Shown piece by piece: positions 3,477 through 21,500 of a stretch of 32,034 nucleotides of DNA; positions within the stretch are counted from its first letter, which is position 1, and every line of letters starts with the position of its first letter. Made by a program: the position numbers and the translations under genes. Below the pieces are notes generated by a model, which was not told where the DNA came from, searched no databases, and was given only the letters and a program-made list of their open reading frames with translations. Source of the stretch: an uncultured bacterium (GTDB taxonomy: Bacteria > UBP6 > UBA1177 > JAKLFG01); the NCBI GenBank assembly GCA_937871295.1, contig CALMRE010000125.1:1-32034 (forward strand), written 5' to 3'.

Positions 3477-3562
3477 GCCGTCACGCTATCCTTTTCCTTT
3501 GATTTTTGCATCTTTTTTTGTTAGCGTGCGGAGAGTTAAGAGTCTCTACACGCCGGAGCCCG

Positions 3563-6145
3563 ATGGAAGCAAGCCGTCCCGCCGCCTTTGATACCCCCGT
3601 CATGGAGCAGTACCGCTCCTGCAAACGGGAATACCCCGACGCCATTCTCTTCTTCCGGCTGGGCGACTTCTACGAGATGTTCTTCGAGGATGCGGTGACC
3701 GCCAGCGAGATACTCGGCCTCACCCTCACCTCGCGCAACAAGGAGGCGGGCATCCCGATGGCCGGGGTGCCGTTCCACAGCGCCGAAGGGTACATCCGCA
3801 AACTGCTCGACGCCGGGAAGAAGGTGGCGCTCTGCGAACAGATGGAGAAGGCCGACAAGAAAAAGAAGATGATCGCGCGGCAGATAGTCCGCGTCTTCAC
3901 CCCCGGCACGGTGGTGGAGGAGACGACGCTCGACGAGACGCGGCAGAACTACCTCTTGGCGGCGGTCAAAGGTCACGGGCAGACGGCGCTGGTCTGGAGC
4001 GATGTCTCCTGCGGCGATGTCTACTACGCCGCGGTCGAGACCTCCCGCCTCACCGATATGGTGCGCACCATCGCCCCGGCCGAGATCATCGTCCCGGTGG
4101 AGATACCGGAACTCCCCGCGCAGACGGCCGACGCGGAGGACCTGCGCGACTGGGTCCCCTCGGCGCAGGCGGCCGATTATCTGGTCCGGCTCCCCGACGA
4201 GGCGCGCGACGACCGGCGGCTGCAGGATGCCTTCCGGCTCCTCATCTGGTACCTCGACCGACTCTACTTCGGCAAGTTCCCGCCGCTGCGCGATCCGCTT
4301 CCAGGCCGCAGCGACGCCCACGCCCTGCTCGACACCAACACCATCGCGAACCTTGAGATAGAGCGCACCCTCATCGGCGGCAACCGGCAGGGGTCGCTCC
4401 TGTGGGCGATAGACCGCACCGCCACGGTGATGGGGCGGCGGCTCCTGCGGAATGTCGCCCTCCTGCCGCTACGCGACCGGGTCGAGATACAGTCGCGGCT
4501 CGATACCGTCGAGTGCTTCTTCGCCGACGACAGCCTGCGCCGCACGGTGCGTGAAAAACTGAAAGAGACAAAGGATATCGAACGGACGCTCTCGCGGATA
4601 CTGGTGAAGCGCGGCGGGCCGCGCGATATCGTGGGGCTGTGCCGCTCGCTCGCCTCTGCGCTTTCCCTGCGCGAGATGCTCCTTACCCACCGCGACCGGC
4701 TCCCGGCGCTCGCCCCCTACATGGCGGGCTACATCCTGCCGGGCGATCTCATCGGCCGCTGGGACCGGACCTTCATCGAGGATGCGCCGCTTAACTGGCG
4801 CGACGGCGGATTTGTCGATCCGGCCCACGCCCCCGAGATCACGCGGCTCCACCGCATCGTCCACGATTCGAAAGGGATGCTCTTGGAACTCGAAGAGCGC
4901 GAAAAGCAGGCGACCGGCATCACGACGCTCAAACTCGGCTATACGAAGGTCTTCGGCTACTATCTCGATGTCACCAAGCGGTTCGCCGAGAAGGTCCCGC
5001 CCCACTACATCCGCAAACAGACCACCGTCAACGGCGAGCGCTACTTCACCCCCGAACTGAAAGAACTCGAAGAGACGATCCTCACGGCCCGCGAACGGCT
5101 GACCGAACAGGAACTGGCGATACTCGAAACGACGGTCCGCGAGATAGCGACGCACGAAACGGCCGTGCAGGCGCTCGCCCGGTTCGTCGCGTGGTGCGAC
5201 CACTTCGCGGCATTCGCCGAGCTGGCCCGCGAGAAAGGATGGGAGCGGCCGCTCATCACCGACGAGGAAGGTATCGAGATCACCGACGGCCGCCATCCGG
5301 TGGTCGAACAGATACTCGGCCCCGGCCGGTATGTCCCCGCCACCATCGCCATCGGGAGCGACTCCGGACGGCTCAACATCATCACCGGACCCAACATGGG
5401 GGGCAAATCGACCCTCATGCGCAAAGTGGCGCTGATCACGCTCCTTGCCCAGATAGGCGCCTTCGTCCCGGCCAAAAAGGCGCGCATCGGCATCGTCGAC
5501 GCGCTGTTCACCCGCGTGGGGGCCTCCGACAACCTCTCGCGCGGCGAATCGACCTTCCTCGTCGAGATGAAGGAGACCGCCTTCATCCTGCGCAACGCCA
5601 CCAAGCGGAGCCTCGTCATACTCGACGAGATCGGCCGCGGCACCGGCACCTACGACGGCATCTCCATCGCACGCGCCATCGCCGAACATCTCGTGAAACG
5701 GATCGAGGCAACGGTGCTGTTCGCCACCCATTACCACATCCTGACCGAACTGGCCGACGAGTTCCCGGGCGTCAAGAACTATCACATGACGGTCAAGGAA
5801 TACCGCGACACTCTCCAGTTCCTCTATCAACTGGCTGAGGGCGGCTCGTCGCGCAGTTTCGGCGTCGAGGTGGCGAAGATGGCCGGGATGCCGGGCGAGG
5901 TGGTCCGGAGCGCCGAAGGGACCCTGCGGGAACTCGAACGGGCCGATCGGACGATGCGGCTCGCCAAAGGCGGATCGATGCAAATGGACATCTTCGCGCT
6001 GCACGCCGAAATGGCCAAGGGGGACCCCCGCGAAAATGAAATTTTGCAAAAGGCGCGCGATATTATATCATCGCACCATCCGGACCGGCTGAGTCCGAAG
6101 GAGGCGCTGGAGTTGTACTATGAACTTTTCACCATTCTGCAATAG
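3563..6145 (+). CDS. mutS: DNA mismatch repair protein MutS
   Basis: MutS recognises mismatches and recruits MutL. With the start at 3563 the protein has 860 residues, a normal MutS1 length. The mismatch-wedge motif FYE is at residues 36-38 (context GDFYEMF). Connector, lever/clamp and ATPase domains follow, with Walker A GPNMGGKS at about 609-616 and Walker B ILDEIGRG with D688/E689. The open frame extends 19 codons upstream to 3506, but those residues are not MutS-like. The ATG at 3563 has GGAG four bases upstream. hisC follows after 12 bases, so the two probably share a transcript. No mutL is in the window. Confidence 0.97.
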   Translation: MEASRPAAFDTPVMEQYRSCKREYPDAILFFRLGDFYEMFFEDAVTASEILGLTLTSRNKEAGIPMAGVPFHSAEGYIRKLLDAGKKVALCEQMEKADKKKKMIARQIVRVFTPGTVVEETTLDETRQNYLLAAVKGHGQTALVWSDVSCGDVYYAAVETSRLTDMVRTIAPAEIIVPVEIPELPAQTADAEDLRDWVPSAQAADYLVRLPDEARDDRRLQDAFRLLIWYLDRLYFGKFPPLRDPLPGRSDAHALLDTNTIANLEIERTLIGGNRQGSLLWAIDRTATVMGRRLLRNVALLPLRDRVEIQSRLDTVECFFADDSLRRTVREKLKETKDIERTLSRILVKRGGPRDIVGLCRSLASALSLREMLLTHRDRLPALAPYMAGYILPGDLIGRWDRTFIEDAPLNWRDGGFVDPAHAPEITRLHRIVHDSKGMLLELEEREKQATGITTLKLGYTKVFGYYLDVTKRFAEKVPPHYIRKQTTVNGERYFTPELKELEETILTARERLTEQELAILETTVREIATHETAVQALARFVAWCDHFAAFAELAREKGWERPLITDEEGIEITDGRHPVVEQILGPGRYVPATIAIGSDSGRLNIITGPNMGGKSTLMRKVALITLLAQIGAFVPAKKARIGIVDALFTRVGASDNLSRGESTFLVEMKETAFILRNATKRSLVILDEIGRGTGTYDGISIARAIAEHLVKRIEATVLFATHYHILTELADEFPGVKNYHMTVKEYRDTLQFLYQLAEGGSSRSFGVEVAKMAGMPGEVVRSAEGTLRELERADRTMRLAKGGSMQMDIFALHAEMAKGDPRENEILQKARDIISSHHPDRLSPKEALELYYELFTILQ

Positions 6146-7353: not shown

Positions 7354-7381
7354 TTGTAAAATCCTTGCGGCACGCTACAAT
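7354..7381 (+). promoter_or_regulatory. Sigma-70-type promoter of the addB-addA-rmuC operon
   Basis: TTGTAA (7354-7359) and TACAAT (7376-7381) are separated by 16 bases. Transcription would start near 7388, just before the GGAGGGAG ribosome site. This places the ATG codons at 7365 and 7380 inside or before the promoter and supports the GTG start at 7407. Confidence 0.6.
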
Positions 7382-7406
7382 GGCACGACCGACCGGAGGG
7401 AGAGCA

Positions 7407-9773
7407 GTGACCGCGATAGAACGACTGATAGCCGCGCTCAAGCCGCACCACCCCGATCTGTCGCGCTTCACCGTCGTATCGATGAGCGGCACCGGCCGCG
7501 ACCTCATCCACGATACCCTCCACCGGAAACTCGGCGGACTCATGCCCACCGTCCTCGAATTCGGCGACTACAAAAGCCGCTGTATCGCCGAGGCGACCGG
7601 CCGCACCCCCCTCCCCGACGACGAGGCGTTCCTCCGCTTCCATCTCCTCCGCTGCCGCGAAAAAGGAGAAACTATAGCGCCTGCCGATACCGAGCGGATG
7701 CTCCAGTTCCTCACCCTCATCGCCCGTTTCTCGGTGAGCGTCGACGAACTCTCCCGGCTCGACCGCATCGCCCCCGAACAACTGGAACGGATAGACTCTT
7801 TTTTCGCCACGATGAACGGGTTCCGGAAAGAACTGGCCGCCGAAGGCCGCTTCTATCCCCCGTTCGAAGAGACGCTCTTTGCCGATCTGACCCCGCGCGA
7901 CAACGAACTCTTTGTCGGACTGCCGGTCATGACCCCCGTGGGGGAACGGTTCTTTGCGCGCATCCCGGAGGAGCGCCGCTTCATCGACCCGCCGCTCTTC
8001 GGCCCCCACATGCCGCACGAGATACCCGATTACGATACCGCCCTTGCCCTCACCCGCCGCACCGGCATCGGCGAAGAGCGCGCCCCGGAAGGTCGGATAT
8101 CTTTCTCCGAACTGGCGGAGCGCCCGGCAGTGGCGGCGCTCATCGCCCGTGAGATAGACGACTTCCTGAAGAACCGGCGCGAGGGGCAGCAGCTTTTTAT
8201 CGTACCGCTTGACGAAACGCTGTCGTTCTACCTGTGGGAACTGCTCTTCCGGCCGCTGGGCGATCTGGTCAACTTCGTCCCGTGGATACCCTTCTCCCAC
8301 TTCGCGGCGGCGCACCGGCTGACCGCGGCGATACGCGACCGGATCCCACTCGACGCGGTGCGGCGTGAACTGGCGGCCGAACTGACCGCCCGCTGGCACG
8401 ACCTCGACGCCGCCGACCGGAGCGCCTTCGAGGGGGCGATACCGCTCATCGACGAGATCACCCGCCTCCAGCCGCTCATGGGGAAGGAGTGGGAAACGCT
8501 CGCGCTCCATATCATCAATGCGAAGAAACTCCGCCTGCGCGGTAAACGGAGCGCCCCGGTGCAGGTGGTCGGCATGGGTAATGCCACCGGCATCCCCTAT
8601 GAACGGGCGCTCATCCTGCCGATGGACCGCGACACCTTCCCGCGCAAACCGTTCAGCGGCCCCTTCCTCAATCTCATCCACCTGCCGCGCATCCATACGG
8701 CGCAGTTCGAGGCCGACGACCTCGCGCTGCGGCAGTTCCTTTCGTTCGGCAATTCGGCCCACATCGCCGCCCGCTACGATACCGCGGCGGGAGAGGCGCC
8801 GTCGCCCCATTTCGCCTTCCTCGCGGTCGAATTCGGCGCAAAGCCGGTGAAGCGGCTGATGGCGGCCGGTTCCTTCCAGACGCCGATCGGGGTCCCGGCG
8901 ATAGAGAACAGCGACGACCTGCGCGACCGGCTCAAAGGATACCACTGGTCCTTCAGTTCGCTCCCCCTCTTTTTTTCCTGTCCCTTCCGGTTCCTGCTGG
9001 AGGAACACGAGAAGGTGAAGCCGCCCGCCTGCTTCGGCGAGGAGGATCGAGTCAACACCGTCATCGGCAAGTTCCTCCACCGTTTCTTCGCGGCGCTGAG
9101 AGGCACCGACAAACCGATCGACCGGTGGCGGGCACATTTCGACGAACAGTGGAATATCGACGGCGAACTGCACGAAAAACTGCCCGACCATGCCGTCCGC
9201 AAGGCGATCGTGCTGAGCTACCTCGACGAGATCGCGGCGTGGGAACGGGAACGGGGGGCGCCGCTCCTCTTCTCCGGCGAGGTGACCGACGCCGAATTCG
9301 ACCTGAACGCCTCGTTCGGTAACGGCTACCAGCTCACCGGACGGATCGACCGCCTGCAGAAGCGCGGCGGGCGGCTGCTCGTCGCCGATCTTAAATATAA
9401 GGAGAAGATAGATGCCGTCGGCACCGAGGGACTCATCGCCGAGGTCGAGGATCAGAATGGCCTTAACGACCAGTTCCAGCTCCTTTTCTACGCCCACCTC
9501 CTCATCGAGAACGGCCGGGCGAAACCCGAAGAGCTCGACGCCGCCTATATCCTCCTGCGGACCGGATCGCCCGACGGCTATCTGCGCGAACTGCCCGCCG
9601 CCGAGATAGCGGGACGGCACGCGACACTGGGTGCGGTCGCCGCGCGGCTGGACCGGATGATCGCGCAGGAGCGGTTCACCCCCAACTACCGCGCCGACGC
9701 CTGCACCTACTGCCCCTACAAAGCGATCTGCCTGCGGCCCGACCTCTACCGGACGGGAGGGCGGCCATGGTGA
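7407..9773 (+). CDS. AddB-like PD-(D/E)XK nuclease with Fe-S cluster
   Basis: This protein of about 788 residues is the likely AddB-type partner of the helicase that follows. The C-terminal RecB-family nuclease core has VADLKYKEK with D661 and K663. Four cysteines, one before the core (C525 in SCPFRF) and three after it (C766, C769, C775 in CTYCPYKAIC), match the split 4Fe-4S staple of AddB nucleases. The N-terminal 500 residues lack a Walker A motif, consistent with the inactivated helicase fold of AddB. It is shorter than Bacillus AddB (about 1160 residues). The start is GTG 7407, preceded by GGAGGGAG with five bases spacing. The stop overlaps the next gene by seven bases, so translation is probably coupled. 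The role is to process double-strand DNA ends for recombination. Confidence 0.85.
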   Translation: MTAIERLIAALKPHHPDLSRFTVVSMSGTGRDLIHDTLHRKLGGLMPTVLEFGDYKSRCIAEATGRTPLPDDEAFLRFHLLRCREKGETIAPADTERMLQFLTLIARFSVSVDELSRLDRIAPEQLERIDSFFATMNGFRKELAAEGRFYPPFEETLFADLTPRDNELFVGLPVMTPVGERFFARIPEERRFIDPPLFGPHMPHEIPDYDTALALTRRTGIGEERAPEGRISFSELAERPAVAALIAREIDDFLKNRREGQQLFIVPLDETLSFYLWELLFRPLGDLVNFVPWIPFSHFAAAHRLTAAIRDRIPLDAVRRELAAELTARWHDLDAADRSAFEGAIPLIDEITRLQPLMGKEWETLALHIINAKKLRLRGKRSAPVQVVGMGNATGIPYERALILPMDRDTFPRKPFSGPFLNLIHLPRIHTAQFEADDLALRQFLSFGNSAHIAARYDTAAGEAPSPHFAFLAVEFGAKPVKRLMAAGSFQTPIGVPAIENSDDLRDRLKGYHWSFSSLPLFFSCPFRFLLEEHEKVKPPACFGEEDRVNTVIGKFLHRFFAALRGTDKPIDRWRAHFDEQWNIDGELHEKLPDHAVRKAIVLSYLDEIAAWERERGAPLLFSGEVTDAEFDLNASFGNGYQLTGRIDRLQKRGGRLLVADLKYKEKIDAVGTEGLIAEVEDQNGLNDQFQLLFYAHLLIENGRAKPEELDAAYILLRTGSPDGYLRELPAAEIAGRHATLGAVAARLDRMIAQERFTPNYRADACTYCPYKAICLRPDLYRTGGRPW

Positions 9774-12619
9774 AAAGCCTGCTGGTCACCGCATCGGCCG
9801 GATCGGGGAAGACCTTCCGCCTGACCCAAGCGGTGCGGGAACATATCGCGACCGCCCCGTCGCTCATCGTCGCGGTCACCTTCACCAACGCGGCGGCGGC
9901 CGAGATGGAGAAACGGATACTCGAGAAGATAACGGGCGAAGCAAGCGCCCCGGCCGAGAAACTAAGCCTCCTCATGCGGGCGGCGCAGGTCCGGTTCTCG
10001 ACGATAGACGCCCTGTTCCACCATTTCCTCGCGACCGAAGAGGAGACGCCGCAGATCGCCGACAAGCACGATGAGGCCTTCATTTCGGCGGCGGCCGACG
10101 AGCGGTTCTTCACCCACCCCGCCGTCATCGCCGACAGCGACCATATCCTCATCGCGGCGCGTATCCTCCGGATATCGCCCGAGGCGCTGCTGAGCGAACT
10201 GGACAAGAACCGCGATACGCTCGCCGCGTGGGAGTGTCCGCCGACCTATCTCGCCGAACTCAAGAGCCGGCAGAGTCTCATTTTCGCCGAGTACGAAAAA
10301 CTGCGTGAACGGGTGGCGGCGGTCGCGGAAGATACGGCGGGCAACCTGCGCAAACAGGTGGTCGAACCGCTCATCCGCCCGATCGATGAAACCGATATCG
10401 GCAAGGCGCTCTTCCTCAAAAGCGACATCGACGCGGTGAAGGTGGCGGCGGCCGACAGGAAAAGCGCCGCCTACGCGACACTGCGGGAACTCTACCCGCC
10501 GATGCGCGCACTCATCGCCCAGTATGTGGTGAATACCGCGCGGCTCCGCAGCGCGCTCCTCAAACACTTCAGCGACCTGCGGACCCAACTGGTGGAAGAG
10601 GAGAAAAAACGGCGCGCCCGCCGCTATTTCGCCGATATCCCGCGCGCCCTCATCGCCCTGGACGGGGCCGAGAGCGACGACCGGCCGCTCCTCATGGCGC
10701 GGCTCTACGAACGGGGCTACCACCGGACGGCGCACCTGCTGCTCGATGAATTCCAGGATACCTCGAAAGAGCAGATGGAACTGCTCCGGCCGCTCATGGA
10801 CGATATCCGCGGCGATGTCGGCGCGGGAGGCATGGGCGAGCGGTCGCTGTTCCTCGTGGGCGACTGGAAACAGTCGATCTACCGCTGGCGCGGCGCCGAT
10901 CCGGAGCGGCTGCGCGGGTGGATCGCCCCGATCGTCCGGTCGGGACAGCTGGCGACCGAAGCGCTCCCCTACAACTGGCGCTCGACACCGCTCCTCATCG
11001 GTTTCTTCAACCGCCTGACGGCAGAACTGTTCGCCGGGAGCAACAGCGCGGCCGACCTGCAGAGCGCGCCGCCCGCAAGCGATCGGAAAAAACCCTACGC
11101 CGGACTTTCGTCGGTCGCGGTGATACCGGTCGTCTGCGGCAGGGGCGAAGATGCGCTCTATGAACGGCTCGTCGCCGAAGTGCAGGAGCGGCAGCGGGAG
11201 ACCGGCTGCGCGTGGGGCGATATCGCGATACTCTGCCGCACCAACACCCAGATGGACCGCGCGGCGCGGATGCTGGCGGCCCTGCCGGTGGGCACATCGG
11301 GACTCAAGGGGCGCGAACTGCTGAGTCTGCGCGAAGGGACGGCGCTTATACTGTCGCTCGCGGCGATCTTCACGGCGCACGACGGTAAATTCATTCCGCG
11401 GGCTCTTTCGGCGCTGGGCTATGACAAAGAACTTATTTCCCTCATCACTCAACTTGCCGGGCAGGCGGGACGACTCTCCCGGCCGCACCGCTTCGCCGCC
11501 GTCGCCGGGGCGCTGCGCGAACTCACTCCCCGCTTCCCGCGCCCCGTCATCGAAACGGTGTGGGATGAGGTGGAACGCTACTTCGACGGACCCGACGGGT
11601 TCGACGCCGCGGCGTTCCTGCGCTATATCGTCGACAGGGGGACGCTCATCACCGTTCCCGAAGGGGTCCACGCCGACCGGGTGAAACTGGCGACGATGCA
11701 CGGCACCAAGGGACTCGAATTCCCCCATGTCTTCCTGCTGTGGAAGGAGGAGCGCGAAAAGGGCGATCCGGTTCGCCATCCCGACAACGGGACGCCGCTG
11801 GACCTCAATAAGGCGGAGCGTGAATTCCTCGCCGCCGACCCGATACCGGGGAGTTCCGCCGTCGCGCAGGCCTTCGATGCGGCGCGCGAGAAACAGGGCG
11901 ATGAGACGGCCAACCTTCTCTATGTCGCGGCGACCCGCGCCGTGCGGAGCCTCACGATAGTGCTCAAGGCGAATACGGAGGGGGAACTCAAAGGGTTCAG
12001 CGAACGGATGCACCGCGCCGCACAGCATCCGCTGGCGGGATTCGACGCGACCGAGTTCGGCCACCGGCACGACTTTGGCCCCGCCGTCGCTGAAGGCGTT
12101 GACGGGCAAGCCCACGAATCCTTGACCCCGGTCACCCTCCCCGTCGCACCCGAAACGGGCGATGACGATCTGCTGGACCCGGCGCTCCGATCGGCCGATA
12201 TCGAGGCGGGTATCGAGCGCGGCCGCCGCATCCACACGGCGCTCGCCCGGCTGACGGCGCAGTGCGATATACCGAAGGATGCCGACCTCACCGACGAGGA
12301 GCGGAAAACGCTCGCCCGCTTCCTGCGCGACCCGGAGGTGACGGCGCTCATCGGCCGCCCCGGAAAGGCGCTCTGCGAACAGCATATCTCCGATACGACC
12401 CCTTTCGGTTTTGGCATCGTCGATAGGCTCATCGTCGCCGACGACCGGGTGACGCTCATCGACTACAAGACCGGCCCGCGCCGCAGCGATCTCACCGAAA
12501 AGTACCGGCTCCAGATGGAACGGTACCGTAAGATCCTGCGCGCCGTTTTTACCGACGGCCGTCCCATCGACGGTTATTTGCTATTTATCGACGAAAAGAA
12601 GATAGTAACGACGCTCTGA
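9767..12619 (+). CDS. AddA-like UvrD/Rep helicase with C-terminal RecB nuclease
   Basis: This 950-residue SF1 helicase-nuclease pairs with the preceding AddB-like protein. Walker A TASAGSGKT is at residues 8-16. Motif II LLLDEFQDTS has D327/E328. The motif III-like region GDWKQSIYRWRGA follows. Motif V MHGTKGLEFPHV and motif VI NLLYVAATRA come later. The C-terminal PD-(D/E)XK nuclease has LIDYKTGPR with D899 and K901. This order is that of AddA/RecB. The family unwinds and resects double-strand ends before RecA loading. Both subunits carry an apparently intact nuclease, as in AddAB rather than RecBCD. It is shorter than Bacillus AddA (about 1230 residues). GGGAGGG precedes the ATG. rmuC follows after 12 bases. 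Confidence 0.9.
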   Translation: MVKSLLVTASAGSGKTFRLTQAVREHIATAPSLIVAVTFTNAAAAEMEKRILEKITGEASAPAEKLSLLMRAAQVRFSTIDALFHHFLATEEETPQIADKHDEAFISAAADERFFTHPAVIADSDHILIAARILRISPEALLSELDKNRDTLAAWECPPTYLAELKSRQSLIFAEYEKLRERVAAVAEDTAGNLRKQVVEPLIRPIDETDIGKALFLKSDIDAVKVAAADRKSAAYATLRELYPPMRALIAQYVVNTARLRSALLKHFSDLRTQLVEEEKKRRARRYFADIPRALIALDGAESDDRPLLMARLYERGYHRTAHLLLDEFQDTSKEQMELLRPLMDDIRGDVGAGGMGERSLFLVGDWKQSIYRWRGADPERLRGWIAPIVRSGQLATEALPYNWRSTPLLIGFFNRLTAELFAGSNSAADLQSAPPASDRKKPYAGLSSVAVIPVVCGRGEDALYERLVAEVQERQRETGCAWGDIAILCRTNTQMDRAARMLAALPVGTSGLKGRELLSLREGTALILSLAAIFTAHDGKFIPRALSALGYDKELISLITQLAGQAGRLSRPHRFAAVAGALRELTPRFPRPVIETVWDEVERYFDGPDGFDAAAFLRYIVDRGTLITVPEGVHADRVKLATMHGTKGLEFPHVFLLWKEEREKGDPVRHPDNGTPLDLNKAEREFLAADPIPGSSAVAQAFDAAREKQGDETANLLYVAATRAVRSLTIVLKANTEGELKGFSERMHRAAQHPLAGFDATEFGHRHDFGPAVAEGVDGQAHESLTPVTLPVAPETGDDDLLDPALRSADIEAGIERGRRIHTALARLTAQCDIPKDADLTDEERKTLARFLRDPEVTALIGRPGKALCEQHISDTTPFGFGIVDRLIVADDRVTLIDYKTGPRRSDLTEKYRLQMERYRKILRAVFTDGRPIDGYLLFIDEKKIVTTL

Positions 12620-12631
12620 ACGGGGATAGAC

Positions 12632-13879
12632 ATGGAAGCGCTCTACATGCTCATCGGCGGCGCGGCGGGGTTCGCGGCGGGTTGGTTCATCGCGCTGCGG
12701 ATCGGCCGGGAACGGGCCGCCGCCGAGACGGCCGGGCTCAAGGCGGTCGCCGAGGCCAAAGATTCGTTCTTCGCCCAGCAGCTCGCCGATCTGAAAACTC
12801 AGCACGCATCTGCCCTTACCGATCTGCGCGACGCCTTCAAGGTGCTGTCGGCCGATGTGCTGAGGGAGAGCGGCCCCGAGTTCGTGAAACTCGCCAAGGA
12901 GACGCTGGAAAAATCGCAGATCGCGGCGCAGGGCGATCTCGCCAAGCGGCAGGAGGCGATCGCGGGACTCTTGAAACCGCTCGAAGAACAGCTCAAGACC
13001 TACCAGCAGCGGCTCCAGCAGAGCGAAAAAGAGCAGAACACCGCGCTGGGCGAGGTGAAAAAACAGCTCGAAACACTCGGCAAACAGTCCGAGACGCTCG
13101 CCGATGTGACGCAGAAGTTCCGGATGGTCCTTTCGTCGTCGCAGGCACGCGGCAAGTGGGGCGAAGAGACGCTGCGGCGGGTGGTCGAGGCGGCCGGGAT
13201 GAGCGCCCACTGCGACTTCACCGAACAAACGACCGGCGATGAATCGCGCCCCGATATGATCATCCGCCTGCCGGGAGAACGGCTCATCATCGTCGACGCG
13301 AAGGTGCCCGATCTCGATTTCCTCGCGGCGCTCGACACCGCCGACGCGGCGGCCCGCAAGATCGCCCTGACGGCGCACGCGGCGAAACTGAAAGGTACCA
13401 TCAAGGCGCTCGGCGACCGCAACTATCCGGCCCAGTTCCCCAACTCGCTCGATCATGTGGTGCTGTTCCTCCCGGCCGAATCGCTCTTCAGCGCGGCGCT
13501 CGAAGCCGACCACGATCTCATCGTCTGGGCGGCGTCGAAAAAAATTCTGCTCGCCACCCCCGCGTCGCTCATCGCGCTACTCCGGTCGGTCAGCGTGAGC
13601 TGGCAGCAGTCGGAACAGACCGATAACGCCCGCGCCATCAGCGCCGCGGCGCAGGAACTCTACAAGCGGGTCGCCGTCTTCACCGAACATCTCGAACGGA
13701 TCGGCAAGGGGCTCGGCACGATGAACGACGCCTACAACAAGGCGGTCGGCAGTTACGAGCGGATGGTGCGGCCGCAGGGGGAAAAGCTCCTCAAACTGGG
13801 GATGCCCGACGGCGGCAAGACGATGATAGAACTCGACGAGACGCAGGAACCGCTGCGGCTCCCGCCCGATACCGAATAG
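12632..13879 (+). CDS. rmuC: DNA recombination protein RmuC
   Basis: This 415-residue protein has the standard RmuC layout. An N-terminal membrane anchor (about residues 4-23) is followed by a long charged coiled coil (about 30-165). The RmuC nuclease-like domain comes next, with GKWGEETLRRVVEAAGM and the core PDMIIRLPGERLIIVDAKVP, whose D and K residues resemble a PD-(D/E)XK site. In E. coli RmuC limits inversions at short inverted repeats; its enzymatic activity is not firmly known. It is the third gene of the addB-addA-rmuC operon, which links it to DNA-end processing. The tail is acidic and low in complexity. Confidence 0.92.
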   Translation: MEALYMLIGGAAGFAAGWFIALRIGRERAAAETAGLKAVAEAKDSFFAQQLADLKTQHASALTDLRDAFKVLSADVLRESGPEFVKLAKETLEKSQIAAQGDLAKRQEAIAGLLKPLEEQLKTYQQRLQQSEKEQNTALGEVKKQLETLGKQSETLADVTQKFRMVLSSSQARGKWGEETLRRVVEAAGMSAHCDFTEQTTGDESRPDMIIRLPGERLIIVDAKVPDLDFLAALDTADAAARKIALTAHAAKLKGTIKALGDRNYPAQFPNSLDHVVLFLPAESLFSAALEADHDLIVWAASKKILLATPASLIALLRSVSVSWQQSEQTDNARAISAAAQELYKRVAVFTEHLERIGKGLGTMNDAYNKAVGSYERMVRPQGEKLLKLGMPDGGKTMIELDETQEPLRLPPDTE

Positions 13880-17302: not shown

Positions 17303-18118
17303 TCAGCGCTCGATGATGCTCCAGTCGCGCATATCTAACTGAAAAAGCGATTCGACGCCGTCGACCGTCTTTTTATAGCCGAAGGTGAGCCGCCCGGTGA
17401 CGGTTACCGGTATCGTGTCGGTGTAGAGTTGTTCGCGGTTGACGGTGAGCGGCTTGGCCCCCGACATCGCCTCGACATGGATGAGGTCGGCAAAGGTGGG
17501 AGGATTGCAGAAGACACAGCCTGCCATGACCACCACCGGATTGGCGAGCCAGAAATCGATCATTTTTCCATCGCTGCCCACCGGTCCGGTCGGCATCACC
17601 ACCCCCGATATGGTGACCGCCGCGCCGTTCAACTGTTCGAGCACCTCCGTGGGCCATTTGTCGTGAAGCCGCAGGTAGAGATTGACCTTGCGGAGTCCCT
17701 GATAACTTAAATTGTAGGGAGCCTCCCAGTTCGGTTCGACCAGCGCGAATTTCGTCCCCGCCTTTTTGTATTCGGCGGCGTTCCCGGCGTTCTTGACGAT
17801 CACCTGCCGTCCGTGTTCGGTGTAACTCTTTTTCACCTGAAAGGCGCCGTCGGTCGTTTCTTTCAGCCCGGCTTGCCCGTCCAAGCCTTGTGCGGCGGCA
17901 GGTTGCGGTACCGTCAAGCCGCCGGTCGGCGCAGAAGCCGCCTCGGGGGGGGGAGCCGCCAGTTCCTTGCTGAATTTTCTGGTTATTTCGTCGGGTTTCG
18001 CCAACTCCTCCTTCACCGTTTCGCGGAACTGGAGGTACTGATAATAGCGCCAGCCGATGACCGCCGCGACGATGATGACGACCGCGCCGACGGCTATGGT
18101 CGGGAGATGCTTTTTCAT
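17303..18118 (-). CDS. Membrane-anchored DUF3299-like protein
   Basis: This 271-residue protein has one N-terminal membrane segment (about 7-25) and a proline/alanine-rich linker (about 50-80). The C-terminal part contains VTISGVVMPTGP and a hydrophobic strand leading to CVFCNPP (C201, C204), then VTGRLTFGYK. This pattern resembles DUF3299, a periplasmic OB-like domain with a conserved CxxC-PP loop. I assign it with moderate confidence, and the function of DUF3299 is not known. The CxxC suggests redox or metal binding. It is the third gene of the dtxR-radical SAM operon: its ATG lies three bases past the preceding stop, and AAAGGA overlaps that gene's end. Its stop is four bases from the convergent kinase stop. 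Confidence 0.75.
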   Translation of the reverse strand: MKKHLPTIAVGAVVIIVAAVIGWRYYQYLQFRETVKEELAKPDEITRKFSKELAAPPPEAASAPTGGLTVPQPAAAQGLDGQAGLKETTDGAFQVKKSYTEHGRQVIVKNAGNAAEYKKAGTKFALVEPNWEAPYNLSYQGLRKVNLYLRLHDKWPTEVLEQLNGAAVTISGVVMPTGPVGSDGKMIDFWLANPVVVMAGCVFCNPPTFADLIHVEAMSGAKPLTVNREQLYTDTIPVTVTGRLTFGYKKTVDGVESLFQLDMRDWSIIER

Positions 18119-18121
18119 GAT

Positions 18122-19075
18122 CTATCCTTTCGTGAAGGTGTGGAGAGAGCGGACGATGAAGCGGTCGGTCCCGAAGGTCACTTCGCTCACGAGCCCTTCG
18201 CTTTTGAGCGATTCTACGATGTCCCACGACGCCCCGGCGGCGGCGAGTATGCTCTCGATGTTCTCGGTGCGCAGCGGATGGACCGCCGTGATGGCCAGTA
18301 TGTCGGCCCGCGCGTCGCCGGTGGAGGAAAAGGCGTTCCCCTCGTGTCCGGTGAGCACCTCGACGGTGTCGGGCGGCAGGGCGATGCTGAAGATATGCCA
18401 CGCGGCGGCAAGGTTCTCGGGGGTCGGCAGTTTGATATCGAGCCGCGCCGGGGGGCGTGTCGGGACGAGGATATAACTTTTCTTCGGTTTGAGCGCCGCG
18501 GTGAATGCGGCGGTGGCGGTGAGCCGCGCCGCGTCGTCGTTCACCCCGCCCAGAAGCATCGTTTCGGTAAGCAGCGTTCCTTTGAATTCCTTGGCGAAGA
18601 GCCGGATGCCGTCGAGTATCGGCGCGAGTTCCATCCCGTCGGCCGGGCAGTCGACGGCGCGCCACGCCGCCGGGTCGAGGGTGTCTATTTTCACCGACAC
18701 GATGTCGGCGAGCATGAGGTCGCGCCGCACATCGGCGCGGTCCATCAGAGATCCGTTCGTGATGACCGCCACCTTCCCCATTGAGCGGACCGCCGCGATC
18801 TGGGCACCGAGTCCCGCGTCGAGCGTCGGTTCGCCGTCGGGGACGAAGGAGATGACCTCGACCGTGCCGCCGCGCGCCGTCACCTTCGCGATCTTCTCGG
18901 CGACCAGCGCGGCGAGGTCCTGCGGGTCGGCGTAGTCGCGCCGCGTGGTGTCGAAATGGCGCGTCAACCCCACCTGACAGTAGGCGCAGGAGTAGGAGCA
19001 TATCTTCTCGGGAAGGGTGTTGACGCCGAGACTCCAGCCGAGTCGCCGTGAAGGGACGGGTCCGAATATCTGCAT
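18122..19075 (-). CDS. Radical SAM protein of the COG0731 type
   Basis: This 317-residue protein begins with GPVPSRRLGWSLGVN, the signature of a radical SAM group related to wyosine-type (Tyw1) enzymes. The canonical CX3CX2C cluster is C26, C30, C33. The SAM barrel follows through about residue 230. The C-terminal 60 residues look like a winged-helix-type add-on (LTAVHPLRTENIESILAAAG). Many such proteins are annotated only as Fe-S oxidoreductase; the substrate is unknown. It is the second gene of the operon with the metal regulator. The start is 12 bases after the dtxR stop, and the only ribosome site, AGAGG, is about 15 bases away, so translation may depend on coupling. Confidence 0.85.
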   Translation of the reverse strand: MQIFGPVPSRRLGWSLGVNTLPEKICSYSCAYCQVGLTRHFDTTRRDYADPQDLAALVAEKIAKVTARGGTVEVISFVPDGEPTLDAGLGAQIAAVRSMGKVAVITNGSLMDRADVRRDLMLADIVSVKIDTLDPAAWRAVDCPADGMELAPILDGIRLFAKEFKGTLLTETMLLGGVNDDAARLTATAAFTAALKPKKSYILVPTRPPARLDIKLPTPENLAAAWHIFSIALPPDTVEVLTGHEGNAFSSTGDARADILAITAVHPLRTENIESILAAAGASWDIVESLKSEGLVSEVTFGTDRFIVRSLHTFTKG

Positions 19076-19534: not shown

Positions 19535-19562
19535 ATTATAGTGCCGAAATGGCCGGAGTCAA
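19535..19562 (-). promoter_or_regulatory. Sigma-70-type promoter of the dtxR-like operon
   Basis: On the minus strand TTGACT (19557-19562), 16 bases, TATAAT (19535-19540). This gives a leader of about 24 bases to the ATG at 19504. It is divergent from the feoB promoter, about 30 bases away. Confidence 0.68.
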
Positions 19563-19592: not shown

Positions 19593-19621
19593 TTGACAAG
19601 TTAGGCCCGGCTAACTATATT
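19593..19621 (+). promoter_or_regulatory. Sigma-70-type promoter of the feoB-like gene
   Basis: TTGACA (19593-19598), 17 bases, TATATT (19616-19621): a perfect -35 and a good -10 at ideal spacing. Transcription would start near 19628, leaving a 75-base leader with two further inverted repeats. Confidence 0.72.
19599..19616. promoter_or_regulatory. Putative DtxR-type operator in the feoB promoter
   Basis: AGTTAG-GCCCGG-CTAACT is a perfect 6-6-6 inverted repeat that occupies the spacer between -35 and -10. The TTAG...CTAA half-sites resemble the half-sites of known DtxR/IdeR boxes, though the spacing is not the standard 19-base box. The adjacent DtxR-type regulator is the likely ligand (inference). 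Confidence 0.6.
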
Positions 19622-19644: not shown

Positions 19645-19702
19645 GAGGCGAGAGCTTCCCCTGGCGACCGGTCAACTTGTTGAAAGAAGGTGATATTTTA
19701 AA

Positions 19703-20938
19703 ATGTTTAGTTTGGGGGCAGGCAGTCGGCGCGAGGTGACCGAGCGGATAGATCGCTGGGTCCTTAACCGCCGTTTCGGCGTGCCGCTCTTCTTCCTCTG
19801 TATGTATTTCTTCCTGCAGGTGGTCTTTGCGGTCGGCGGCCCGGCGGCGCTTGCCCTCGAACATCTTTTTTCCCATATCGGCCGGTGGGTGACCGCGAAT
19901 GGTCCCTTCGCCGACGGATCGCTCGGGCTGACACTCGTCACCAGCGTCATCGCCGGGGTGGGCGGCGTTCTTGCCTACACGCCGAACCTTTTCCTTTTAT
20001 TTTTCGGCATGGCCTTCCTTGAGCAGAGCGGTTATCTCGCCCGCGGCGCGGCGCTCCTCGACCGGCACATGACCCGCATCGGCCTGTCGGGCGGCTGTTT
20101 TGTGCCGCTCGCGCTCGGGTTCGGCTGTACGGTCCCGGCGGTCATGGCGACCCGCGCCATCACCAACCGCCGCGAACGGATCGCCGCGATCATGATGCTG
20201 CCGTTCCTGTCGTGTTCGGGCCGCCTGCCGGTCTATCTGCTCCTCGTGTCGGCGTTCTTCGCTCCGGCGTGGCGTCCGGCGGCGCTCTTCGGCGTCTATC
20301 TGATGGGGACGCTCGCGGCGGTCATTTTCGTGCTGATCCTGCGCCGCACGCTTCTCAAGGGCGACCGGTGCGGCTGTCTCCCGGTCCTTCCCGAATATGT
20401 GATGCCGCCGCTCAAGGACATTCTTGCATCTTCGTGGGATCGCGGTCGTCATTTCCTTGAGAAGGCGGGGACGACGATACTCATCGCGAGCATTCTTCTG
20501 GGACTGCTCGCCGCATGGCCGCAGGTTGGCGGGACGCCCGATGAACAGGCGCGCGGCACGCTGCTGGGTCGGATCGGCACCGCCGTCGAACCCGCTTTTG
20601 AACTGATGGGGGGCGACTGGCGCATCGCCGACGCGGCGCTCGCGTCGCTCGCCGCCAAGGAGATGTTCGTGTCGCAGGCGGCGATACTCTTCTCGCAGGA
20701 GGACAGCGGCGTCATCGGCACGGGGCTTTCGGAGAAACTGCGCGAGACCTATCCGCCCGCCGCGGCGCTCGCGTTCCTTATATTCATACTCTTCTCGGCG
20801 CCGTGCGTGGCCACCTTCGCGGCGGTCAAGGCCGAGACCGGCAGTTGGAAATGGGCCTCGGCGCAGTATGCCGGGATGACGCTCCTCGCCTACTTCGCGG
20901 CGGTCGCCGTCTTCCAGTTGGCGCGGTTGTTCGCCTGA
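19703..20938 (+). CDS. FeoB-type ferrous iron permease domain without GTPase
   Basis: This 411-residue polytopic membrane protein matches the transmembrane half of FeoB. It begins in the linker that normally follows the GTPase (EVTERIDRWVLNRRFGVPLF). Both gate motifs are present: ARGAALLDR...GFGCTVPAVMATR with its cysteine, and MLPFLSCSGRLPVY. About eight membrane segments are visible. The N-terminal G domain of about 270 residues is absent. The upstream DNA is a promoter and leader, not a broken G domain. AGAAGGTGAT, close to the extended anti-16S sequence, precedes the ATG. Split FeoB systems are known in which the G protein is encoded separately, but none is in this window. It is divergent from a DtxR-type regulator. 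The likely role is uptake of Fe(II) or a related divalent metal. Confidence 0.88.
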   Translation: MFSLGAGSRREVTERIDRWVLNRRFGVPLFFLCMYFFLQVVFAVGGPAALALEHLFSHIGRWVTANGPFADGSLGLTLVTSVIAGVGGVLAYTPNLFLLFFGMAFLEQSGYLARGAALLDRHMTRIGLSGGCFVPLALGFGCTVPAVMATRAITNRRERIAAIMMLPFLSCSGRLPVYLLLVSAFFAPAWRPAALFGVYLMGTLAAVIFVLILRRTLLKGDRCGCLPVLPEYVMPPLKDILASSWDRGRHFLEKAGTTILIASILLGLLAAWPQVGGTPDEQARGTLLGRIGTAVEPAFELMGGDWRIADAALASLAAKEMFVSQAAILFSQEDSGVIGTGLSEKLRETYPPAAALAFLIFILFSAPCVATFAAVKAETGSWKWASAQYAGMTLLAYFAAVAVFQLARLFA

Positions 20939-20948
20939 CAGTCTTCGC

Positions 20949-20977
20949 TTGACATGTTCGTGTCGATAGGATACTAT
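20949..20977 (+). promoter_or_regulatory. Sigma-70-type promoter of the toxin-antitoxin pair
   Basis: TTGACA (20949-20954), 17 bases, TACTAT (20972-20977). The downstream GGGGAGGAG is an excellent ribosome site for the antitoxin ATG at 21007. Confidence 0.75.
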
Positions 20978-21006: not shown

Positions 21007-21198
21007 ATGAGCGCCACCGTCAAGCAGGAGGTCCTTGATCTTATCACTCGATTGCCAGAAGAGACCTCCATCGAGGACATCCAATATCATCTCTATGTCC
21101 TTCAGAAGATAAAGAACGGCATCACCGATGTCCGGGAAGGCCGCGTTCTCTACCACACCGATGCCAAACGCAAGTTCGAGAAATGGCTCGGCAAGTGA
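21007..21198 (+). CDS. Antitoxin of a ParE-type module
   Basis: This 63-residue protein is helical and charged. Its N-terminal helix (VKQEVLDLITRLPEETSIEDI) and C-terminal REGRVLYHTDAKRKFEKWLG are typical of short antitoxins of ParE/RelE modules, where the C-terminal part wraps the toxin. No strong DNA-binding fold can be assigned by eye, but the palindromic operator predicts one. It overlaps the toxin gene by 16 bases, the usual coupling. It is a type II system whose partner is the next gene. Confidence 0.82.
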   Translation: MSATVKQEVLDLITRLPEETSIEDIQYHLYVLQKIKNGITDVREGRVLYHTDAKRKFEKWLGK

Positions 21199-21500
21199 TC
21201 TGGGCCGTTTCGGCGCTCGACGATCTCGACGAGGCGGCTGAATACATCGCCCGCGATTCGGAATTCTATGCCGTTGCGCTGGTCACCGATGCCTTCGGCG
21301 CGGCCGAGCGACTGGTCGAGATGCCGTTGATGGGGCGCATGGTGCCGGAGTTGGGGCGTCGGGATCTCCGCGAACTGCTCGTGCAGAGTTATCGTCTCGT
21401 GTATCATGTCGAAGGCGACCGCATCAACATACTGGCGCTCATTCATTCGCACCGCGATTTCCTCAAGGCATTGCCGGAGAAACCCGCAGAGAACCTTTAG
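21183..21500 (+). CDS. ParE/RelE-superfamily toxin
   Basis: This 105-residue protein has the RelE/ParE fold pattern. The N-terminal VIWAVSALDDLDEAAEYIAR is the hallmark of ParE-type toxins. FGAAERLVEMPLMGRMVPEL and the strand run RELLVQSYRLVYHVEGDRINILALIHSHRDF end with the conserved I-H-x-R-D-F. The active residues of RelE are not all present, which fits ParE, a gyrase inhibitor, better than an mRNase. The target cannot be proven from sequence. The start overlaps the antitoxin end. An AT-rich repeat block follows the stop. Confidence 0.9.
   Translation: MARQVIWAVSALDDLDEAAEYIARDSEFYAVALVTDAFGAAERLVEMPLMGRMVPELGRRDLRELLVQSYRLVYHVEGDRINILALIHSHRDFLKALPEKPAENL

Follow-up and report, generated by a model that had tools for sequence, protein, structure and literature searches.

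Described FeoB systems and the open reading frame in the window

The Feo system consists of FeoA and FeoB. Full-length FeoB carries an N-terminal G domain (PF02421) and a GDI domain in addition to a membrane domain with the order Gate-FeoB_C-Gate, three core cysteines, and the AAKE and APC motifs, as in the E. coli protein and in 4 FeoBs from families that are sisters of the one studied here (L072-L075). The NTPase is essential in the FeoBs of the species studied (PMC10353542; PMC4847171), and activity without it would therefore be unprecedented as far as we have found; the same NTPase turns over too slowly to power active transport (PMC4847171). A region named Core CFeoB, described as common to all FeoBs, has been put forward as a site of metal binding (PMC11920956). 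Manganese-transporting FeoBs include R. capsulatus Feo2 (PMC10353542) and P. gingivalis FeoB2, whose promoter is bound by PgMntR, a DtxR-family regulator (Asp19, Cys108, Glu111, His112) that binds both Mn(II) and Fe(II) (PMC4805248). In split FeoBs, the membrane domain is a protein of its own and a separate FeoB-type G protein is present in the genome. A search of the open-access literature for a FeoB without a GTPase domain returned nothing. To our knowledge, neither FeoB2 nor Feo2 is G-less.

We analyzed a window that comprises the whole of contig C125 (32,034 bases) from a genome of 3.45 Mb in 271 contigs, estimated to be 99.3% complete. The feoB reading frame in this window (Table 1) starts with ATG and is uninterrupted. 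Its product aligned with profile positions 236-594 of the 594 positions of the TIGR00437 feoB model with 282 bits, a score below the model cut-off of 315.65 bits, and matched Pfam Gate (PF07670, 3e-30, two stretches) and FeoB_C (PF07664, 5e-9) in the order Gate-FeoB_C-Gate. The alignment with E. coli FeoB (29% identity, E 1e-50) begins at residue 13 of the window protein, which corresponds to E. coli residue 271, so both the G and the GDI domains are missing. No sequence match to the CNT (SLC28) families was found, Gate and FeoB_C being the only families matched, and a PDB sequence search with the 411-aa protein gave no match. Judged by these profiles, the protein is the membrane part of FeoB, as an earlier note on this DNA had claimed, and membership in another permease family, which that note had named as a refutation, was not found. 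The note had also described the gate motifs as intact and the gene as having its own promoter and ribosome-binding site; GFGC[TS]VPA, the APC..T.A...ET segment, and AAKE are indeed all present, and both upstream elements were located. Its statement that the protein starts right after the G domain holds for the absence of that domain, but the start lies after the GDI domain. The divergent DtxR/MntR-type regulator, the operator, the conservation across the family, and the gained cysteines described below go beyond that note.

Table 1. Features of the feoB locus (positions in the 32,034-base window; residues numbered in the 411-aa protein)
Feature	Position	Strand	Remarks
Radical SAM protein	18122..19075	-	adjoins regulator, same order in 4 genomes; partial at contig edge in the fifth
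DtxR/MntR-family metalloregulator, 138 aa	19088..19504	-	PF01325 5e-18, PF02742 2e-15; MntR structures matched
Sigma-70 promoter of divergent DtxR/MntR gene, TTGACT-16-TATAAT	19535..19562	-	both hexamers partly conserved in family
Second, degenerate operator-like element TTAGGAAATACGAA	19571..19584		perfect palindrome TTAGGAAATCCTAA in G003
feoB sigma-70 promoter TTGACA-17-TATATT	19593..19621	+	11/12 consensus bases; invariant in 5 genomes
Operator GTTAGGCCCGGCTAAC filling promoter spacer	19600..19615	+	sole site in 3.4 Mb genome at ≤1 mismatch
Ribosome-binding site AAGGTG	19687..19692	+	10 nt before ATG, read from sequence
feoB, membrane domain only, 411 aa	19703..20938	+	lacks the G and GDI domains at the N-terminus; no FeoA
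Codons 131-132, GC (GGCF)	20093..20098	+	K/R-S (GKSF) in other FeoBs; family-specific, gained C132
First gate motif CTVP (C142-P145)	20126..20137	+	retained; C142 in 44/44
SCSGR, residues 170-174	20210..20224	+	A173 invariant in 39 full-length FeoBs, G in 5/5; C171 retained
Gained C-G-C, residues 223-225, Core CFeoB loop	20369..20377	+	replaces xPF/xPL; 5/5 family, 0/39 full-length
K319-E320 of AAKE	20657..20662	+	retained; E320 in 44/44
C368 of APC motif	20804..20806	+	retained, 44/44

Several other genes of the window were characterized. The radical SAM protein falls into no assigned family, its best named model being viperin-like and far below cut-off, and in 4 family genomes the gene lies beside one for a DUF3299-like conserved protein with a hydrophobic N-terminus (17303-18118, - strand). 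Downstream of feoB there is a type II toxin-antitoxin pair (21007-21500, + strand) whose antitoxin is weakly RelB/ParD-like and whose toxin is of the ParE/RelE type (PF05016, 1.5e-16), with its own promoter-like site at 20949 and no homologue near feoB in the related loci of G001-G004. An AddB/AddA-like pair (7365-12619, + strand), made up of a PD-(D/E)XK nuclease and a UvrD helicase with a C-terminal nuclease, adjoins RmuC (12632-13879) and MutS (3506-6145).

Distribution and history of the G-less FeoB

The G-less FeoB was found in all 5 genomes examined from the source family (G000-G004, 3 genera; identities 100, 95, 73, 72, and 71%), with open frames of 414-436 aa compared to 685-717 aa (about 690) in sister families of the order. 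The earlier note had seen neither a G protein nor FeoA in the window; none was identified there, and the genome-wide search that it had proposed found neither FeoA nor a FeoB-type G domain in the source genome or in the 4 family relatives. FeoA was present in 0 of 5 source-family genomes versus 23 of 24 further relatives included for comparison, and the FeoB-type G domain in 0 of 5 versus 23 of 24, where it scored 179-230 bits. The same 23 genomes have both, and the exception (G021) is 72% complete, the genomes examined being fragmented and 65 to 99% complete. The best scores of the FeoB G-domain model in the 5 family genomes were about 60 bits or less, and a distant G protein of the FeoB type, the type to which this absence refers, is rejected in all 5. 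In the source genome, 8 open reading frames matched the model: 7 are Der, MnmE, HydF, EngB, Obg, Era, and IF-2, and the eighth, on contig C116, scored 21 bits. The alternative left by the earlier note, a distant G partner or none, thus stands as an either/or, but its first branch is now unlikely.

Two side observations came from these searches. HydF, the [FeFe]-hydrogenase maturation GTPase (L003, contig C158), scored well above cut-off, and its presence suggests that the source organism is probably a hydrogen-metabolising anaerobe. Among the other relatives (G005-G024), it is common for a genome of genus g4 (family f2) to encode 2 different full-length FeoBs and up to 3 FeoA domains, some of which share an open frame with FeoB.

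Within the source family, dN/dS was 0.06-0.29 (with synonymous distances approaching saturation at the upper end), and the G-less FeoB has thus been under purifying selection after loss of the G domain. Together with the occurrence of the same protein in 5 assemblies and 3 genera, this rules out a recent truncation, as the earlier note had held, and likewise a frameshift or an assembly error. In a phylogeny built from 48 membrane domains, an analysis the note had also called for, the 5 G-less proteins form one clade (support 100/100) that is sister (100/99) to the full-length FeoBs of the same order, which places their descent from full-length FeoB. The stem of the G-less clade measures 0.89 changes per site versus 0.13 for the sister stem. 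As read from this tree, the G-less state is an old single loss with vertical descent, and the simplest history would be that the family ancestor lost FeoA and, once only, the G/GDI part of FeoB, after which a burst of change gave way to strong conservation.

Ordinary split FeoBs offered a direct comparison. Three typical cases (L077, L078, L079) were found in 3 unrelated genomes; as here, the membrane domain is its own protein, but it is about 468 aa long, with an N-terminal linker of ~70 extra residues, and follows a separate G-domain open reading frame located just upstream. These pairs branch at a distance from the G-less clade and have retained their neighbouring G protein, and therefore the G-less state differs from the split state; an ordinary split FeoB is ruled out, no such G protein having been found in the source-family genomes. 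Overall, the earlier note's reading, a FeoB membrane domain that is not a recent truncation, is supported, with the distant-partner branch unlikely.

Among the best matches listed from 386 genomes searched, no further intact short FeoB frame was found, and these matches do not support the G-less FeoB as a common form. The survey covers the stronger matches listed, leaving out G166 (528 aa), and the search of one further phylum consisted of 5 genomes. Short-looking frames that were set aside are G333 (389 aa), which begins at contig base 1, and G009, G018, and G023, which lie at contig ends.

Conserved and changed residues, predicted fold, and the adjoining regulator

We compared residues in 44 sequences, the 5 G-less proteins and 39 full-length FeoBs. 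C142, C171, and C368 and E107, E320, and E378 are kept in all 44. At invariant or nearly invariant sites, the family-specific changes are A173G, W267G, F92Y, G81S, F38L, K131G with S132C, and the C-G-C at residues 223-225. Compared to full-length FeoB systems, the G domain, GDI domain, and FeoA partner are missing and the GGCF and CGC changes are present, and the SCGAR motif survives only as SCSGR in the source family. The new cysteines (C132, C223, and C225) are flanked by K/R residues, which suggests that they face the cytosol.

An AlphaFold2 model of the 411-aa protein built on 44 sequences had a pLDDT of 82.8 and a pTM of 0.80. Its closest PDB folds were CNT (SLC28) nucleoside carriers such as vcCNT and CNTnw (probability 1.00, E 1.3e-3 to 3e-3, TM about 0.45, large rmsd), the top match (E 2.7e-3, TM 0.44) being weak by E-value. 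CNTs are ion-coupled elevator carriers that stand alone without an NTPase; they differ from the G-less FeoB in substrate, which is a nucleoside, and share 14-15% aligned identity with it. As a control, the membrane part of a full-length FeoB from G006 (pLDDT 87) gave the same CNT match. The match is weak, was also obtained with the ordinary FeoB modelled as control, and does not show secondary transport; the fold predicted for the G-less protein may be CNT-like, as may that of the control. No structure of a FeoB membrane domain was found among the PDB entries searched.

A gene for a DtxR/MntR-family regulator adjoins feoB divergently in all 5 family genomes, and in 4 sister genomes the stretches read around the full-length feoB genes showed no DtxR homologue. 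All 5 intergenic regions retain TTCTTGACA-n-GTTAGGnnnnkCTAAC-TATATT, in which the palindrome occupies the 17-bp promoter spacer, so that the locus has both an adjoining DtxR-family regulator and a palindromic operator in the promoter, as do uptake genes regulated by DtxR/MntR. Promoter-like sites in the region numbered 4 versus 0.8 expected. GTTAGGNNNNKCTAAC occurs once in the source genome with one mismatch allowed, and the reversed control pattern gave 5+5 sites. This single occurrence is the reason why the regulator appears dedicated to the feoB/regulator pair. Its ligand set (D14, C106, E109, H110) combines the Asp of MntR with the Cys of DtxR and equals that of P. gingivalis MntR (D19/C108/E111/H112), under which FeoB2 is placed (PMC4805248). 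In contrast to PgMntR, which has twin FeoA domains, the 138-aa regulator ends after the metal-binding domain. No Nramp gene was found in the source genome. G000, G001, and G003 encode an ABC binding protein of the ZnuA type, which was not found in G002 and G004; its presence indicates that other divalent metal uptake may exist.

Proposed function and alternative explanations

We propose, with a probability of about two in three, that the locus encodes a DtxR-controlled Mn(II)/Fe(II) importer that works without a FeoB G protein, with FeoB reduced to its membrane carrier, probably a secondary carrier. In the family ancestor, feoB would have lost its N-terminal G and GDI domains in a single event, FeoA would have disappeared from the genome, and feoB would have come under a divergently transcribed DtxR/MntR-type repressor. 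When cytosolic Mn(II)/Fe(II) is scarce, the repressor, free of metal, would come off its operator between -35 and -10, which would allow the carrier to be made. The divalent metal would then pass the FeoB core via C142, C171, and C368 and E107, E320, and E378, the carrier moving like a CNT elevator, powered by an electrical or ion gradient and with no GTPase acting on it. The predicted cytosolic C132, C223, and C225 may form a metal exit site that stands in for the lost cytosolic domains. Most economically, the membrane domain would be the carrier itself and the G domain a regulator that was dispensed with, control being handed to DtxR/MntR transcription. We hold the fuller version more tentatively, leaning slightly against it: Mn(II)/Fe(II) import without any GTPase by a CNT-like secondary carrier, with the cysteine exit site (C132 and C223-x-C225) replacing the G/GDI/FeoA machinery.

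The NTPase requirement in the FeoBs studied, the long stem branch, and the changes A173G, W267G, F92Y, and K131G count against the proposed importer, and such changes at otherwise invariant sites could reflect an altered rather than a retained function. The protein might have abandoned Fe/Mn import and become an exporter, come to carry a different metal, or turned into a membrane-bound sensor serving the regulator. The fast evolution of the stem, the gained cysteines, and the divergent pairing with a single dedicated regulator would fit such a change, but the three core cysteines and the conserved glutamates are all kept, the operator lies between -35 and -10, where metal-dependent repressors of uptake genes usually bind, and the source genome has no Nramp importer; we consider this explanation unlikely.

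A G protein acting in trans, with a housekeeping or unrecognised GTPase binding and gating the membrane domain, seems to us slightly less probable still. The FeoB G domain is known as a separate protein, as in the 3 split pairs, and the genomes encode several TRAFAC GTPases. However, the G proteins of the split cases are adjacent and 37-40% identical to the FeoB G domain, while in the 5 family genomes nothing matched above about 60 bits and 7 of the 8 source-genome candidates belong to housekeeping families. FeoA, the partner of the G domain, has also been lost, and the GDI linker is gone.

It is very improbable that the G protein and FeoA sit in unassembled parts of the genomes: completeness falls as low as 65% in the set, but the source genome is 99.3% complete, and none of the 5 family genomes has either, whereas 23 of 24 relatives of similar completeness have both. 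A decaying remnant, or a frameshift or assembly error masking a full-length FeoB, can be dismissed, since although the sequences appear to be metagenome-assembled, the architecture is identical in 5 assemblies and 3 genera, the dN/dS values are low and the promoter and operator conserved, and the divergent regulator starts about 200 bp upstream and leaves no room for a 270-aa G domain.

The importer proposed here bears on an open FeoB question, namely why a metal transporter is joined to a G protein that hydrolyses GTP too slowly to drive transport (PMC4847171). A lineage that long ago shed FeoA along with both the G and the GDI domain, yet has kept the carrier under selection, constitutes a natural deletion experiment that tests the need of FeoB for GTP. 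Transport by the G-less protein would mean that the membrane domain suffices, and the question of whether FeoB is a channel or a carrier could be approached on a minimal protein of 411 residues. If GTPase-free import is true, the G domain would be a regulator added to a carrier, and neither its motor nor its gate.
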